Shown here one piece after another: positions 6,729-14,340 of a stretch of 64,000 bases of DNA (positions are counted from its first letter, which is position 1; each line of letters starts with the position of its first letter). Origin of the DNA: Natrialba taiwanensis DSM 12281 (GTDB lineage: Archaea; Halobacteriota; Halobacteria; Halobacteriales; Natrialbaceae); assembly GCF_000337595.1 (NCBI RefSeq), contig NZ_AOIL01000001.1, positions 5,498 to 69,497 of the forward strand, in the 5' to 3' direction. The position numbers and the translations under genes are program-made. Below the pieces are notes generated by a model. That model saw only the letters and a program-made list of their open reading frames with translations. It ran no database searches and was not told the origin of the DNA.

Positions 6729-8324
6729 TCAGTGGTCGGCTTCGTGAGGGTTGAGTTCCGTTCCGTAGTTCTCGACATGGTCGGTGTAGTCGATGAAGCG
6801 CGGCGCGTCCGGGTCGAACGGCCGTTCCAGCGCCTCAAACGCGTTCTTTTTATCCCACGACTGGAGTCCGCCGACTGCTGAGCGGTCTTCGAGGTCGTGA
6901 TAGTCAAGGTCGGGCGCTGCGTGCTGCCACGCGTCGAGACCGTGCTCGGTGCGGACGATAACGCTCGAATACTCGTCCGAACTCCCGACCGAGCCGACCG
7001 TCACATCGGCGGCGTACCCGGTGAAATCCGCGCACTCGTCGCACCCCTTCAGCGCGGCCCCGTGGAAGTTCTCGATGTCCTCCGCGAGGAGCTGTTCCCC
7101 GTCCTCGTCGTAGACATACATGTTTCCGTCGAGCACGTCGAGTTTGCCGATTTCGTCGGGGCTGATGTCGCGTTTCGCTTCTAATTGCTCGCCGATGAGT
7201 CTCTGATAGTTGAAGTTCTTCGTACACATCAGGGCGATCGTGTACTCGACACCGCGCACGCCCGCGTTCTGGGACTGATACTCCCACTCGAAGTCCTGGA
7301 GGGCGCGCACACCCTCGATTTCACACGGCGTCCCGACGAGCGCGAGCGAGAGATCCTCGTGATCCTTGTCCGGAAGTTTGTGCTCCCACTGGGCGAGATC
7401 CAAGTTCCCGAGCGCCATCGTCTGGTTGTAGAAACTTCCCGCGTTGTCGATGACTTCCTCGGGAGTGGTGGCGAGGAAGCTCTCTGCCTTCCACGCCTCT
7501 TCGTCGCTCTCGGTGGCGATGAGCGCGCCGTCGATCTCGCCAGCTTCGAGCAGGTGGATCAGCAGCGAGGAAACTACGCCGCCGTCCTGTGCGCCCTCAC
7601 GCCAGTTCGCTTCGACACGTGCGGAAAACTCCGTGATCGGGTCACCAGCGCCCGAGACGTTGTCCTCCCCGCCGGTGATCTTCCACTGGCGCTCGTAGCG
7701 CAGCCCGCCGCGTGGACAGAAGTCCCAGCAAAGCGAACAGCCGGTGCACATCTTGACGAGTTCCGGCAGGCCGTCGTCGCCGATACCGATGGAATCGGAG
7801 GGACACGCGGCGACGCAGGTGCCACACTGAATGCACCGGCCCTCGTCGATGACTGCCGTATCGAGTTCCATGAACCACGTCTTGTCGTCGGGCGTCTCGA
7901 TGTCGTTCATCTCCGAACGGATCGAATACCCCGGTGTATCGACGGCCGCCCCATCGGGAACGTTGACGCGCTCGTCCGGCGACCCCCCGCGTTCCACGTC
8001 TTGACTCACGCCGTCGGCGGGCTGAGTGAACTCGATATCGCCGAGGCTGCCGTTCTCGTCGACGTTCGCCGCCGATGCACCACCGTCAGCGATGGCCCAC
8101 CGGTCACTCGCCATGCCGTCCGACCCGCGTGCACCGCAGGTACACTGCCCGTCAGTGCAGCGGTCGTCACCATCTGTGGCATCGGCCTCGTTTGTGGTGT
8201 GCCCGGTCTGCCGACTCGCGTGGTGGTTATCGCTCCCGCTGACCGGCGGACCGCTCGTGCCATCGTCGCTCGTGTCGGGGACTCCCGGAAGCGGCCGGTC
8301 GCTCCCGTTCTCTCGCTCAGTCAT
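6729..8324 (-). CDS. Ferredoxin-type F420 dehydrogenase (FrhB-like) partner of the siroheme reductase
   Basis: The 531-residue protein has a disordered acidic N-terminus (about 1-145) with an odd Cys trio (C56, C61, C63). Two 4Fe-4S motifs follow, C164-x2-C-x2-C-x3-C and C193-x2-C-x2-C-x3-C. Then comes a FrhB-type coenzyme F420 hydrogenase/dehydrogenase beta region to about residue 500, including the GTPCEIEGVRAL and KGCDECADFTG segments. FrhB proteins use FAD to move electrons between F420H2 and iron-sulfur carriers. The start ATG (8324) overlaps the nitrite reductase stop by 8 bases, so the two are co-translated. The open frame continues far upstream but that part is only a shadow of the reductase. 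Inference: it feeds F420H2 or ferredoxin electrons to the reductase. Confidence 0.85.
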   Translation of the reverse strand: MTERENGSDRPLPGVPDTSDDGTSGPPVSGSDNHHASRQTGHTTNEADATDGDDRCTDGQCTCGARGSDGMASDRWAIADGGASAANVDENGSLGDIEFTQPADGVSQDVERGGSPDERVNVPDGAAVDTPGYSIRSEMNDIETPDDKTWFMELDTAVIDEGRCIQCGTCVAACPSDSIGIGDDGLPELVKMCTGCSLCWDFCPRGGLRYERQWKITGGEDNVSGAGDPITEFSARVEANWREGAQDGGVVSSLLIHLLEAGEIDGALIATESDEEAWKAESFLATTPEEVIDNAGSFYNQTMALGNLDLAQWEHKLPDKDHEDLSLALVGTPCEIEGVRALQDFEWEYQSQNAGVRGVEYTIALMCTKNFNYQRLIGEQLEAKRDISPDEIGKLDVLDGNMYVYDEDGEQLLAEDIENFHGAALKGCDECADFTGYAADVTVGSVGSSDEYSSVIVRTEHGLDAWQHAAPDLDYHDLEDRSAVGGLQSWDKKNAFEALERPFDPDAPRFIDYTDHVENYGTELNPHEADH

Positions 8325-10023
8325 CGGCGGCGACACCTCCGGAAACGTTCGCATCAGCCCGTTGCATGACCGTCTGAAGCCGGTCGTTGTCGACGCGTCG
8401 GCACCACTCATAGAAGCGCTCGCCGTCGTGGCGTTCGTCGGTGTAGGCCGCGAACAACCGCTCGAGAGCCGGAATGACGGCGTCGGCTGGGACGGCAGTC
8501 TCGACCCAGTCGATGAACTCGTTGTCGACGCCCAGCGAACCGCCGAGACCGACGTCCATGCCCTCGACGATGGTATCTCCTTCTTCGTTAGTGCTGTTCT
8601 CGTCGTCGCCGACCTGGACGGTCTCACCGCGGAACCCGATATCCGCGATCTGGGGCTGGGCGCACGAGGCCGAACAGCCCGACATGTGCATCCGCACCAC
8701 GTCGAGGTCGTCGGGGATGTCGATACGGCCGTCGAGTTCACGTGCCCACCGCTTGACGCGCTTTTTCGTCTCGATGATGCCGTAGTTGCAGAACTCGCTG
8801 CCGGTGCAGCCCACCGCGCCGCGTGAGAACGGTCCGGGGTCGGGCTGGTACTCCGCGGCGAACGGTTCGGCGAGCAGGTCGTCGACGTTCTCTTCGGGAA
8901 TGTGGGTGATGAGGAAGTTCTGGTCGGTCGCCAGCCGAATCGTGGTGTCGTCCGTGCCGTACTTTTTGGCTGCGCGGGCGACCTCGACCAACTCGTCGCC
9001 CCCCATTCGGCCCGCGACGACGTTGAATCCGACATAGCGGAGGCCGTCGTCGCGCTGCTCGTGGACACCGACGTGGTCGCCGGTGTACCCTTCGGTGAGG
9101 TCCTCGCCGCGCGACCGGAGGGGGACGGTAGCGCGGTCCCGAATCGCCCGCTCGAAGTTTTCGGGACCCATCTCCTCCACGAGGTAGCGCATCCGACAGA
9201 CGCCGCGGTTGTGCCGGTCGCCGACCTCCTTGAACACCTGAGCGACGGCACGACAGAACTCGACTGCGTCTTCCGGGCGGACGAACACGTCGAGGGGTGA
9301 GGCCATCCGGGGGCCGTCCGAGAGCCCGCCGCCGATGCGGGCGTGGAAGCCGTAGTAGGGTTCGCCGTCGATTTCTTTTCTGGCGGGTGTGAGGCCCACG
9401 TCGTTGATCTGGGATTGGGCGCAATCCTCTCGACACCCCGTGATCGTTAGTTTGAATTTTCGTGGGAGGTTCGCGTACTCCCGATTTTCGGTGAAGAAAT
9501 CGGATACCGCATCGATAACCGGTTGCGCGTCGAAGACCTCGTGGTGGTCGAGACCCGCCGCTGGACATCCCAAGACATTGCGTGCGGAATCGCCACACCC
9601 CTGAACCGTCGTCAGTCCGACTTCATCGTACATCTCCCAGATTTCGGGTACGTCCTCGAGTTCTATCCAGTGCATCTGGAAGTCCTGTCGCGTGGTGATG
9701 TCCACGAACGCGTCGCCCCAGAGGTCATTCTGCTGTGCGCCGCCGAACTCTTCGGGTGCGGTGGCGTATTCGTCAGCAACCTTGCCCACGACCGCAGCCT
9801 GCTCGGGTCGCAGCGCTCCGCCGGGGACCTTCGTGCGGACCATGAAGTAGCCGCGTTGCTTGCCGTGGCTGTACATCCCGGCCCATTTGAGGCGCTCCCA
9901 CTCGCCGTCGCCGGCGCGGTCTTCGATCTCGTCGAACGAGAGACTCTCGTTCGCATACTCCTTGACGTCCTCGATAACGTCGAGCGGGTGTTTTTCTTGT
10001 TTCCAGCGTTCGACTGTATTCAT
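8317..10023 (-). CDS. nirA: Siroheme [4Fe-4S] nitrite/sulfite reductase (NirA-type)
   Basis: This 568-residue enzyme carries the two-fold nitrite/sulfite reductase repeat. The siroheme-iron-sulfur ligands are C406 and C412 in CTGSEFC and C450 and C454 in GCSASC, fitting C-x5-C-xn-C-x3-C. The CTGSEFCNYGIIETK segment is closer to assimilatory ferredoxin-nitrite reductases than to sulfite reductases. A second pseudo-symmetric TGCREDCAQ sits near residue 196-202. The ATG at 10023 gives the family length; a longer open frame upstream lacks homology and lies in the divergent promoter region. It would reduce nitrite to ammonia in the cytoplasm by a six-electron transfer, with the overlapping FrhB-like protein as likely donor. 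Sulfite as substrate is not excluded. Confidence 0.87.
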   Translation of the reverse strand: MNTVERWKQEKHPLDVIEDVKEYANESLSFDEIEDRAGDGEWERLKWAGMYSHGKQRGYFMVRTKVPGGALRPEQAAVVGKVADEYATAPEEFGGAQQNDLWGDAFVDITTRQDFQMHWIELEDVPEIWEMYDEVGLTTVQGCGDSARNVLGCPAAGLDHHEVFDAQPVIDAVSDFFTENREYANLPRKFKLTITGCREDCAQSQINDVGLTPARKEIDGEPYYGFHARIGGGLSDGPRMASPLDVFVRPEDAVEFCRAVAQVFKEVGDRHNRGVCRMRYLVEEMGPENFERAIRDRATVPLRSRGEDLTEGYTGDHVGVHEQRDDGLRYVGFNVVAGRMGGDELVEVARAAKKYGTDDTTIRLATDQNFLITHIPEENVDDLLAEPFAAEYQPDPGPFSRGAVGCTGSEFCNYGIIETKKRVKRWARELDGRIDIPDDLDVVRMHMSGCSASCAQPQIADIGFRGETVQVGDDENSTNEEGDTIVEGMDVGLGGSLGVDNEFIDWVETAVPADAVIPALERLFAAYTDERHDGERFYEWCRRVDNDRLQTVMQRADANVSGGVAADD

Positions 10024-10380
10024 TGGTGTCTCATCTCGTCGATAGTTATCGGTGAATTCCTGAGAACGACTTTCCCAGCGAACTAGCATGAGATATAGAG
10101 GCGTGAGTGTGATTGTCTCTCGGGTTACGGCGAGACCTGACGATACTCGGCGATTGCGGTTGAAATTGCTGCTGACTACGAGACAAGGACAGCCCTCACG
10201 TTCGCTACTGTGTGGTGCTTGCCGATTTCCCGGCCGAATATGGCCGTCTTCACCCCCGCAGGCATCACTCACATCGTTCGTCGTGTGTCCGATACTACCG
10301 TCCCTCTGTAGGTCTCTTCCGAACTGGCTGAGAAATTCCGGTTTCGGAACCCTTGAGAATCACCGTTAGAAATACACTCT
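10024..10380. promoter_or_regulatory. Divergent promoter region, reductase operon and MFS gene
   Basis: This 357-bp intergenic stretch separates oppositely transcribed nirA-like and MFS genes and must hold both promoters. I did not identify a convincing TATA box or operator by eye. The apparent upstream extensions of both genes into it have no family support. Confidence 0.45.
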
Positions 10381-11538
10381 ATGGCTCGCTCTCGGCTCTT
10401 TGCCTCTCTCTGCGGACTTGTCTTTCTCGTCAATCTCGCCAGAATCATCTTCGCCCCACTTCTGGACGTTTTTATCACCGAGTTCCCGATCGGGGAGGCA
10501 ACTGCTGGGCTCATCGTGACGCTCGCGTGGGTCGGCAGCGCGTCACTCCGCCTTCCGACGGGGTGGCTTCTCACGAAGGTGCCGAGACACTACGTCGTAA
10601 TCGCGTCCGGTGCGATTCTTGCGGTCTCCGCCACGATCGCTGCGACGGCGACGACGCTTCCGCATCTCATGGTTGGTGCGTTCTTCATGGGGATGGCTTC
10701 CGGCGTGTATTTCGTCTCGGCGAATCCGCTTTTGAGCGAGTTGTATCCGGAGCGCATCGGCCGTGTCATGGGCGTCCACGGGGCCGCCAATCAGCTCGCC
10801 GCGGTGATCGCTGCGCCGTTCGTCGCGCTGACGCTGCTTGTCGACTGGCGGCTCTCGTTGTGGGCCATTGCCGTCGGCGCTGCGGTGATCACGGTCTACA
10901 CGTGGATCGCCGCGAGTCGAACCGAGATGCCGGGCGCGGGACAGGCCGACCGCAATTTCGTCGCTGGCGCGCTTTCAGAGTGGCGGATCATCGTGACGGC
11001 ACTGGCTATCGTCGGGCTGGCCGTCTTCGTCTGGCAGGGAGTGTTCAACTTCTACGAACTGTACATGCAGTCGAAGGGGCTTTCCGATCGAGCGGCGGGG
11101 GCAATGCTCACGATCGTCTTCGCCGCCGGCGTTCCGGCGTTTTACTTCGGCGGCGATCTGGCCGACCGCCTCCCACACGTCCCGTATCTGCTCGGTATCG
11201 TCGGGACGTTTTCCGCGACGCTGCTCGTATTGACGCGACTCGAGAGTCTCCCCGCGCTCGTCGTGGGTTCCGCGTTCATCGGCCTCGTCGTCCACATGTT
11301 GTACCCGGCCGTCGACACGTACCTTCTCGATACGCTCCCGGACTCGACGCGGGGGAGCGCCTACGCCGTGTTCAGTTCAATCTGGATGTTCTCGCAGGCG
11401 CTCGGCTCGTCGGCCCTGGGCATCCTCCTCGAACGAGGCTACGCCTACGATACGGTGTTCAGCGGCGCTGCGCTCTTTCTCGGCGCAACGATTCTCGTTC
11501 TCGTCCTCTTAGAGCGGACGGACCGACTCCCGAGTTAA
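10381..11538 (+). CDS. Major facilitator superfamily transporter
   Basis: The 385-residue protein has about twelve hydrophobic helices. The loop 2 segment RLPTGWLLTKVPRHYV resembles the MFS G-x-L-x-D-R/K-x-G-R-R/K motif in weak form. Its position divergent to a nitrite-reductase-type gene suggests it could move nitrate, nitrite or a related anion, but the sequence lacks a nitrate signature that I can recognise. It acts in the plasma membrane. Confidence 0.8.
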   Translation: MARSRLFASLCGLVFLVNLARIIFAPLLDVFITEFPIGEATAGLIVTLAWVGSASLRLPTGWLLTKVPRHYVVIASGAILAVSATIAATATTLPHLMVGAFFMGMASGVYFVSANPLLSELYPERIGRVMGVHGAANQLAAVIAAPFVALTLLVDWRLSLWAIAVGAAVITVYTWIAASRTEMPGAGQADRNFVAGALSEWRIIVTALAIVGLAVFVWQGVFNFYELYMQSKGLSDRAAGAMLTIVFAAGVPAFYFGGDLADRLPHVPYLLGIVGTFSATLLVLTRLESLPALVVGSAFIGLVVHMLYPAVDTYLLDTLPDSTRGSAYAVFSSIWMFSQALGSSALGILLERGYAYDTVFSGAALFLGATILVLVLLERTDRLPS

Positions 11539-11604: not shown

Positions 11605-14340
11605 TCAGCGCCGAACTCTTCCGAGCAGTTCGTAGTCGTGATCGGGGGTATACCGCCGGAACAGCAGGCTGTTCGACAGCACGGACACACTGGAGAACGC
11701 CATCGCCGCCGCAGCCAGAACCGGTTGCAACAATCCAAGAGAGGCCAGCGGAATGAGCGTTGTGTTGTAGCCGAGCGCCCACACGAGGTTCTGTTTGATC
11801 TTCTGGATCGTTGCATCGGAGATGCGAATCGCCTTTACGACGTCGAGTGGGTCGTCGCGCATCAGCGTCACGTCGGCGGCCTCGATGGCGACATCAGTCC
11901 CGGAGCCGATAGCCGTCCCGACGTGGGCGACGGCCAAGGCTGGAGCGTCGTTGACCCCGTCGCCGACCATCATCGCCTGCCGGCCGTCGGCTTGAATCGC
12001 CGCGACCGCGTCGGACTTGTCCTCGGGGAGCACCTCGGCCCGAACGTTCTCCGGTTTGATCCCGACCCGTTCGGCGACCGACCGAGCGGTCCGCTCGTTG
12101 TCGCCGGTGATCATCATCACCTCGGTCCCGCGCTCGGAGAGTTCAGTGACTGCCGCTCTCGCACTGTCTTTGACGGTGTCGGCATCGGCGACGACGCCGA
12201 CGAGTTCACCGTCGTTGTCGGTGTCGCTGCCATCGTTGTTCTCAGGTTTGCCATCGCCGGTTCCGGCCGGCATGCGAGCGACGAGCATCGCGGTCTTGCC
12301 CTCGTTCTCGAGCCGCTCCATCGTCTCGACGGCCGACGAGGGGTCGATGCCGTTGTTTCGCAGGAGGGTGCGGTTGCCGACGAGTACCTCGTCGGAACCG
12401 ACGGTTGCGCGAACGCCCTGCCCCGGGACGTTCTCGAACGCGTCGGGTTCTGCGAGTTCGAGGCCGCGTTCGTTCGCCCCCTCGACGATAGCTTGGGCGA
12501 GCGGGTGTTCGCTGCCGCGTTCGGCTGTCGCCGCGAGCCGGAGCACGTCGTCTTCGGTGAGTCGGTCCTCGCCCGCTACCCGATCCGCCGACGGGGCGTT
12601 CGGGTCGCTCTCCTCGCTTGCTTCGTTTGCGTTACTCGTCTCGCTTGCGAGACCGCCGTCGACCGCCGCCTCGCCGCCGTCCGTCACAGAACGACTCTCC
12701 CCGTCGAGCGCGATGACATCGGTCAACTCCATCTCGCCCTCGGTGAGCGTTCCCGTCTTGTCGAAGACGACCGTATCGACGTCTTTCGTCCGTTCGAGGA
12801 TATCACCGCCCGTGAACAGGACGCCGTTTTTCGCCCCGATAGTCGTCCCGACCATCGTCGCCGCGGGCGTCGCAAGCCCGAGCGCACAGGGGCAGGCGAT
12901 GAGCACTGACGATGCGAACACGACGATCGCGAACTCGAAGACCGAGACGCTTCCACCAGCCGGTGCCGGTCCGCCGGCGACCTGGCTCCACAGCGGGAGC
13001 CAGTCGACGACCCCTGCCAGCATTTCGGGGAACAGGAACCAGACGAACCCCCAGAACAGGGCGTTCGCGATGACCGTCGGGACGAAGTACGCCGAGATCC
13101 TGTCGGCGAGATTCTGAATGTCCGGCTGGCGGGACTGGGCTTCCTTGACCGTCTGGACGATCTGCTGGAGCGCCGTCTCGTCGCCGACTTTCGTCGCCTC
13201 AACGACGAGCACCCCGTTCTCGTTGATCGTCGAGCCGACAACCTCGTCGCCGGCTTCCTTCTCGACGGGGACCGACTCGCCGGTCACCATCGACTCGTCG
13301 ACCGCCGACTGCCCGTCGACGACCACGCCGTCAGTCGGAACCTTCTCGCCCGGACGGATCTTCATCCGGTCGCCGACCGTCACCGCGTCGAGCGGCACCT
13401 CGGACTCCTCGCCGTTCTCGTCGACGACCGTCGCCGTCTCGGCTTCCAGTTCCAGCAGCGCCCGGAGCGCGTCGCTGGCCTGGCCCTTCGAACGAGCCTC
13501 GAGATAGTTCCCGAGCGTGATGAACACCAGGATCAACGCCGCGGTGTCGAAGTACAGACTCCCGGCTAACAGCCCGAGCAGGACGACGACGCTGTACACG
13601 TACGCCGTCGACGACCCCAGCGCGATCAGCACGTCCATGTTCGCCCGTCGATTCTTCACGAGCGCCGTGTACGAGTTCTCGTAGAACTCCCGCCCGAGCA
13701 CGATCTGTACCGGCGTCGCGAGCAGGAACTCGATCCACCCGAACTCGACGCCGAACACCTCGTTCGGGAGCACCCCGCCGCCGAGCAGGAACTTCTCGGC
13801 GATGAAAAAGAGCAGCGGTGCCGAGAGCACGGCTCCGAAGAGGGTCAACTGGAGTTGACGTTGTATCTCCGCCTGTCGCGCGTCGTCGCGGCGTTCCTGA
13901 TCCGACTGCTCCCCGTCATCGTCGCGGACGGGCGTGTATCCAGCTTCGTCGATTGCATCGTAGAGCGCCCCTCTGGATACGTCCGCCGGATTGAACTCGA
14001 CTTGCGCCTCGTCGGTTGCGTAATTCGCCTCCGCGCTGATCACGCCGGGAACGGCTTCAAGCGCGTCCTCGTTGGTGGCGGCGCAGTTCGCACACGTCAT
14101 GTCCGAAATCCCGATCGAAGCGGTCGCACGCTCGGCGTGGTAGCCGGCGTCGTCGATCGCGTCGTATAGCGCGCCGAGCGATACCGCGTCGGGATTGTAT
14201 TCGACGGTTCCTTCGTCGGTGGCGAAGTTGATGTTCGCCGCCGAGACCCCGTCGAGTTCTTCCAGGGCGTCGGTGATCGCCTGCGAGCAGTTCGCACAGC
14301 TCATGCCCTGGATTTCGAGGTGCATAGTTCGAGTGTCCAT
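11605..14340 (-). CDS. copA: Copper-translocating P1B-type ATPase
   Basis: The 911-residue pump has two N-terminal heavy-metal-associated domains with CANC motifs (C15/C18 and C83/C86). Eight membrane helices follow, with the intramembrane [14 protein letters not shown] metal site and the P-type signatures DKTGTLTEG (phosphorylated Asp), SEHPLAQAI (nucleotide-binding HP), TGDN and [10 protein letters not shown]. The CPC plus C-terminal NxxY and MxxSS-like segments ([21 protein letters not shown]) place it in the Cu+ exporting CopA group. An acidic Asp/Asn/Glu-rich insertion lies in the nucleotide domain around residues 535-570. It lies 87 bp downstream of the copper regulator on the same strand and should export Cu+ from the cytoplasm. 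Confidence 0.95.

Follow-up and report, generated by a model that had tools for sequence, protein, structure and literature searches.

Which electron donor and which substrate are served by a siroheme reductase whose gene runs into that of an FrhB-type flavin/iron-sulfur protein? The question is raised by a gene pair in the haloarchaeon Natrialba taiwanensis DSM 12281 (genome of 4.6 Mb in 70 contigs), located in the 64,000-nucleotide stretch of contig NZ_AOIL01000001.1 that we analyzed and refer to as the window. The idea that such a pair forms a two-protein F420 sulfite reductase is not new. It was predicted in 2012 by Susanti and Mukhopadhyay (PMC3448663), who named the putative enzyme aFsr, with aSir as the alpha subunit and a homologue of Fsr-N as the beta subunit, and listed Halogeometricum, Halorhabdus, Halalkalicoccus, and Haloterrigena as hosts. 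A 2022 paper on an ANME nitrite reductase still lists aFsr-beta within a putative enzyme, and we found no activity data on any aFsr in the open-licence literature. Reviews call the role of F420 in haloarchaea undetermined or enigmatic (PMC8498797, PMC8305020), and the pair is a concrete and widespread candidate use of it. The window adds a Natrialba member, in which an aSir/NirA-type gene adjoins an Fsr-N-type gene and which resembles the 2012 aFsr in components, organism class, and proposed function, with no difference that matters. What is new here is the class-wide pairing of the two genes, the split in residues between the haloarchaeal NirA groups, and a control based on linkage to nasA, which sharpen the 2012 suggestion into a test of how haloarchaea use F420. 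Judged by sequence, the two proteins probably make up, as its two subunits, an assimilatory sulfite reductase that depends on F420H2 (aFsr), for which we infer complex formation, F420H2 as the donor, sulfite as the main substrate, and an assimilatory role.

The coordinates of both proteins given in a preliminary description of the locus are exact, as is the overlap of 8 bases, which holds the frhB start and the nirA stop (Table 1). The open frame of aFsr-alpha extends back to a GTG at 10272; the listed ATG is the likely start because at most named loci the alignment with the homologue begins at residue 1 of the ATG-initiated protein. The haloarchaeal origin proposed from the letters alone agrees with the nearest named relatives of aFsr-beta, which are found in Natrialba aegyptia (96% identity) and N. 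asiatica (94%). The pair is present in three of the seven Natrialba genomes sampled.

Table 1. Features of the aFsr gene pair in window coordinates.
Feature	Position	Strand	Details
aFsr-alpha gene	8317..10023	(-)	NirA-type, 568 aa; ATG at 10023, TGA at 8317
aFsr-beta gene	6729..8324	(-)	FrhB-type, 531 aa; ATG at 8324, TGA at 6729
Overlap of both reading frames	8317..8324	(-)	8 bases, ATGACTGA; sequence read directly
C-x4-C-x-C motif, aFsr-beta N-terminus	8136..8159	(-)	residues 56-63, in low-complexity acidic extension
Two ferredoxin-type 4Fe-4S motifs, aFsr-beta	7713..7835	(-)	residues 164-204: C164/167/170/174, C193/196/199/203
Third [4Fe-4S] cluster, FrhB core of aFsr-beta	7030..7325	(-)	C334, C367, C428, C431
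Conserved residues of aFsr-alpha			Tyr51, Cys143, Lys189-x-Lys191, CX5C 406-412, CX3C 450-454; invariant or almost invariant across 96 orthologues

Pfam domains bear out the earlier assignment of a NirA-type reductase and an FrhB-like protein. aFsr-alpha contains the PF01077 (2e-52) and PF03460 (7e-32) repeats together with the CX5C and CX3C ligands of the siroheme-linked cluster that are the hallmark of NirA/aSir proteins. Its best PDB match is the plant nitrite reductase 3b0l (E = 2e-86) and its best matches are NirA, whereas Fsr is reached at E = 8e-10 only; against the NCBIfam model NF007125 it scores 393 bits, under the cut-off of 594. The ferredoxin nitrite reductases of plants (2akj, 3b0g) and NirA of Mycobacterium tuberculosis (1zj8) share the NirA fold and the same cluster ligands, but they draw on ferredoxin and lack an FrhB partner, and the plant enzymes have Asn where the window reductase has Lys191. 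The Tyr51-Cys143 pair presumably resembles the Cys-Tyr pair of the M. tuberculosis enzyme.

aFsr-beta consists of an FrhB domain (PF04432, 8e-31; PF04422, 7e-22) preceded by an N-terminal ferredoxin domain with two [4Fe-4S] motifs, which is matched by 4Fe-4S dicluster domains; the four core-cluster cysteines and the fold likewise place it in the FrhB family. Its PDB matches include CODH-zeta (8riu, E = 6e-41) and Fsr (7np8, E = 1e-35). The two 4Fe-4S motifs described previously are both present, but the cluster sites total three. All eight cysteines of the ferredoxin motifs are invariant in 118 homologues, and the four of the FrhB core, which align with the cysteines of Fsr, CODH-zeta, and FwdI, likewise never vary among 98 proteins of type i and 20 of type ii (types are defined below), giving 12 of 12 conserved cluster cysteines. 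The cluster ligands of FrhB and its Ser-Val loop beside F420 have been described (PMC3591093). The AlphaFold model of aFsr-beta is of moderate quality (mean pLDDT 61), with much of the core at 70-93 and a poor ferredoxin domain. A C-x(3-6)-C-x-C motif is found in 79 of the 98 type-i FrhB proteins, and the long acidic N-terminal extension is absent from type ii.

Two solved systems are instructive for comparison. In methanogen Fsr (7np8, 7npa), a two-cluster ferredoxin domain and an F420H2-oxidase domain likewise feed a siroheme sulfite reductase, but in Fsr all parts are fused into a single chain, the reductase part of which is Dsr-like, has a single repeat, and carries an inserted ferredoxin domain, whereas the window encodes two chains and a two-repeat reductase of the NirA/aSir type. 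The earlier phrase for the locus, the logic of Fsr in two proteins, is thus an apt one, and an assimilatory-type reductase with a partner of the FrhB/Fsr-N type is supported. CODH-zeta (8riu) from Ca. Ethanoperedens and FwdI (8rja) are stand-alone ferredoxin-FrhB subunits docked on another redox enzyme, as aFsr-beta probably is, and are closest to it in sequence among solved structures, but their partner is CODH or formylmethanofuran dehydrogenase and they run in the F420-reducing direction.

The association of the two genes extends across the class. When a class-wide sample of 392 haloarchaeal genomes was searched for the C-terminal domain of FrhB (PF04432), an FrhB gene was found in 126. Haloferax volcanii gave no PF04432 hit. 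A NirA gene (70-96% identical) lies directly upstream on the same strand in 79 of the 80 named loci retrieved via the FrhB protein; the genome of the lone exception (L133) also has a complete pair (L136), and another FrhB copy that stands alone (L079) belongs to a genome in which other FrhB and NirA copies lie elsewhere. By a hand count from the result tables, every one of the 126 FrhB-positive genomes has a NirA-family gene, which is a type-i reductase of at least 72% identity in 118 and the rhodanese-fused type ii in the other eight. None of 20 sampled FrhB-less genomes has a type-i reductase: 12 have only a NirA relative of 44-47% identity and eight have none. These counts of FrhB-positive and FrhB-less genomes indicate that type i goes hand in hand with FrhB. 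The pairing is all but obligatory for the type-i reductase, its arrangement is not due to chance, and it is old; this kind of aFsr is present in about one third of haloarchaeal species. In one of the 118 genomes the type-i reductase is split over two frames (G322:C1:3519641-3521343), reflecting a pseudogene or a sequencing error. No natural NirA-FrhB fusion was found in the genomes searched; one candidate, an open frame of 1108 aa, lies in a different frame from the FrhB match of its genome.

The haloarchaeal NirA proteins fall into four groups, each of which is its own clade in the family tree; support labels moved on re-rooting, and the branching order of the groups was not used. Type i is the FrhB-paired NirA of the window. 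Type ii, found in sister operons at L040-L059 (for example, L040:6460-8871 and L040:8873-10129), is a protein of about 800 aa in which two N-terminal rhodanese domains (PF00581 twice) are fused to a homologous reductase, about 50% identical, followed by an FrhB gene; this FrhB is shorter (about 415 aa) and has no long N-terminal extension. Type iii is a NirA without an FrhB partner, represented in the N. taiwanensis genome by a second Lys-type NirA with sulfite-type residues (C55, L007:6613-8388, + strand). It may be the ferredoxin-dependent counterpart of aFsr, because its relative is the sole NirA-family gene in 12 of the 20 FrhB-less genomes. Type iv adjoins nasA, and its copy in the same genome (C51) forms a NasA + NirA pair at L008:7747-12229 on the - strand, the nasA of which passes the NCBI model of haloarchaeal NasA (NF041323) with 1222 bits.

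These groups differ at the active site when aligned on the window aFsr-alpha. Lys189-x-Lys191 is kept as Lys-x-Lys throughout type i and in every common variant listed for types i, ii, and iii, whereas type iv has Lys-x-Asn, as does plant nitrite reductase, and carries Phe and Gly at the positions of the Tyr and Cys. Lys191 occupies the position of plant Asn226; wild-type plant nitrite reductase is Lys-x-Asn, and the tobacco PDB entry 3vlx, which we take to be the N226K mutant, has Lys there. The genomic context splits in the same manner: nasA is within the retrieved flanks of 18 of the 21 type-iv loci and in those of none of the 140 other NirA loci, including the 99 of type i. Both features of the plant/NasD-type ferredoxin nitrite reductases, the Asn at tobacco position 226 and the linkage to nitrate reductase, are therefore lacking in type i. 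Type ii points to sulfur chemistry, as its architecture suggests that an F420-linked reductase receives sulfite derived from thiosulfate. A 2024 paper recorded rhodanese-NirA fusions in 19 of the 529 NirA proteins it covered and tentatively linked them to sulfur metabolism (PMC11237513); we found no paper in the open-licence literature that joins this fusion with FrhB. Because of the Lys-x-Lys residues, the nasA-linked paralogue, and the rhodanese-fused sister pair, sulfite is the better guess, and we hold with good confidence that it is the main substrate of the window pair. Of the two substrates proposed in the preliminary description, sulfite is accordingly favored and nitrite weakened as the main one, with nitrite reduction a possible side activity. 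The automatic annotation of aFsr-alpha-type genes as nitrite reductases is corrected by this reading.

What the sulfite reduction is for is less firmly indicated. The enzyme could chiefly detoxify sulfite, or recover sulfite released from thiosulfate, instead of serving sulfate assimilation. The tandem rhodanese domains fused to the type-ii reductase fit this alternative, as do separate rhodanese genes near six of the 99 type-i loci and a search of the N. taiwanensis genome for a clear PAPS reductase, which returned only weak PAPS_reduct-domain proteins. One such protein (C12, L203:1360-2331, + strand) resembles CysD/CysH and falls below all NCBI cut-offs. However, no rhodanese gene was found near the other 93 type-i loci, and type i is the sole NirA-family gene found in 16 of the 126 genomes, which suits a biosynthetic need. 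We consider a detoxifying or recovering role doubtful, if the most credible of the alternatives, and prefer an assimilatory one. The weak PAPS_reduct-domain matches and the second Lys-type NirA (C55) do count against the aFsr reading.

The identity of the donor depends on aFsr-beta. Its closest solved relatives, CODH-zeta (8riu) and Fsr, are proven F420 enzymes, and in a Foldseek search F420-dependent FrhB-family chains occupy ranks 1-12, with the ferredoxin-dependent HCAR at rank 13 and lower. Ser445-Val446, which corresponds to S209-V210 beside F420 in FrhB, is invariant in all 98 type-i proteins. The host can probably both make and reduce F420, because its genome has genes for CofD and for two homologues of F420:NADP oxidoreductase (npdG) that score above cut-off. 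The proposed contacts of FrhB with F420 are less uniform: the lysine of the IGKGK turn, thought to hold the F420 phosphate, is Lys in 60 of the 98 type-i proteins and Asn in the window protein, and Phe, Val, or Ile stands at the position of Lys75 of FrhB, although the proven F420 enzyme 8riu likewise has no Lys75. Because these lysines are only partly kept, F420H2 stays a candidate donor, if a well-favored one. The alternative is a flavin subunit fed by NAD(P)H, or by reduced ferredoxin as in HCAR. HCAR, which has the FrhB fold and uses ferredoxin, is a significant Foldseek match, and the loss of the phosphate-binding lysine in the window protein would be compatible with such a donor. Against this, the nearest relatives by both sequence and fold are F420 enzymes, the genes to make and reduce F420 are at hand, and an FAD partner would presumably be superfluous for a reductase that can take electrons from ferredoxin by itself. 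A donor other than F420H2 is therefore unlikely.

Least likely of all is that the pair chiefly reduces nitrite with F420H2, for nitrogen assimilation or nitrite detoxification. In favor of this reading, the nearest overall sequence match is to the ferredoxin nitrite reductases of plants, F420H2-driven nitrite reduction has been described for Fsr and for ANME FsrII (PMC9295563, PMC10202398), and Fsr enzymes of methanogens with nas operons keep the Lys-x-Lys pair yet serve as nitrite reductases (PMC13381448), so that residues by themselves cannot exclude nitrite. Against it, nasA adjoins no type-i locus, type ii bears sulfur-transfer domains, and the simplest candidate for handling nitrite in N. 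taiwanensis is the type-iv enzyme, with its plant-type residues and linkage to nasA.

For F420H2-dependent sulfite reduction, we propose an electron relay modeled on that of Fsr (PMC10229431). Hydride from F420H2 would reduce the FAD of aFsr-beta. Single electrons would then leave the flavin by way of the core [4Fe-4S] cluster, follow the pair of ferredoxin-type clusters, and cross the subunit interface to reach the [4Fe-4S]-siroheme of aFsr-alpha. There, sulfite would undergo six-electron reduction to sulfide, feeding cysteine synthesis. Because the NirA subunit is without the inserted ferredoxin domain that carries the relay onward in the Fsr reductase, the ferredoxin domain of aFsr-beta would occupy the docking site used by plant ferredoxin. 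By extension, chances seem evenly balanced that sulfur assimilation in about one third of haloarchaeal species has F420H2 as its dedicated reductant, and that the rhodanese sister enzyme splits thiosulfate and reduces its sulfite to sulfide in one F420-driven complex; if so, F420 would have a physiological role in haloarchaea. The pair is adjoined in the window by genes for a divergent MFS transporter (10381-11538) and a copper-type P-type ATPase (11605-14340), which we do not regard as parts of the system because, among the type-i loci compared, this neighborhood is kept only in Natrialba.
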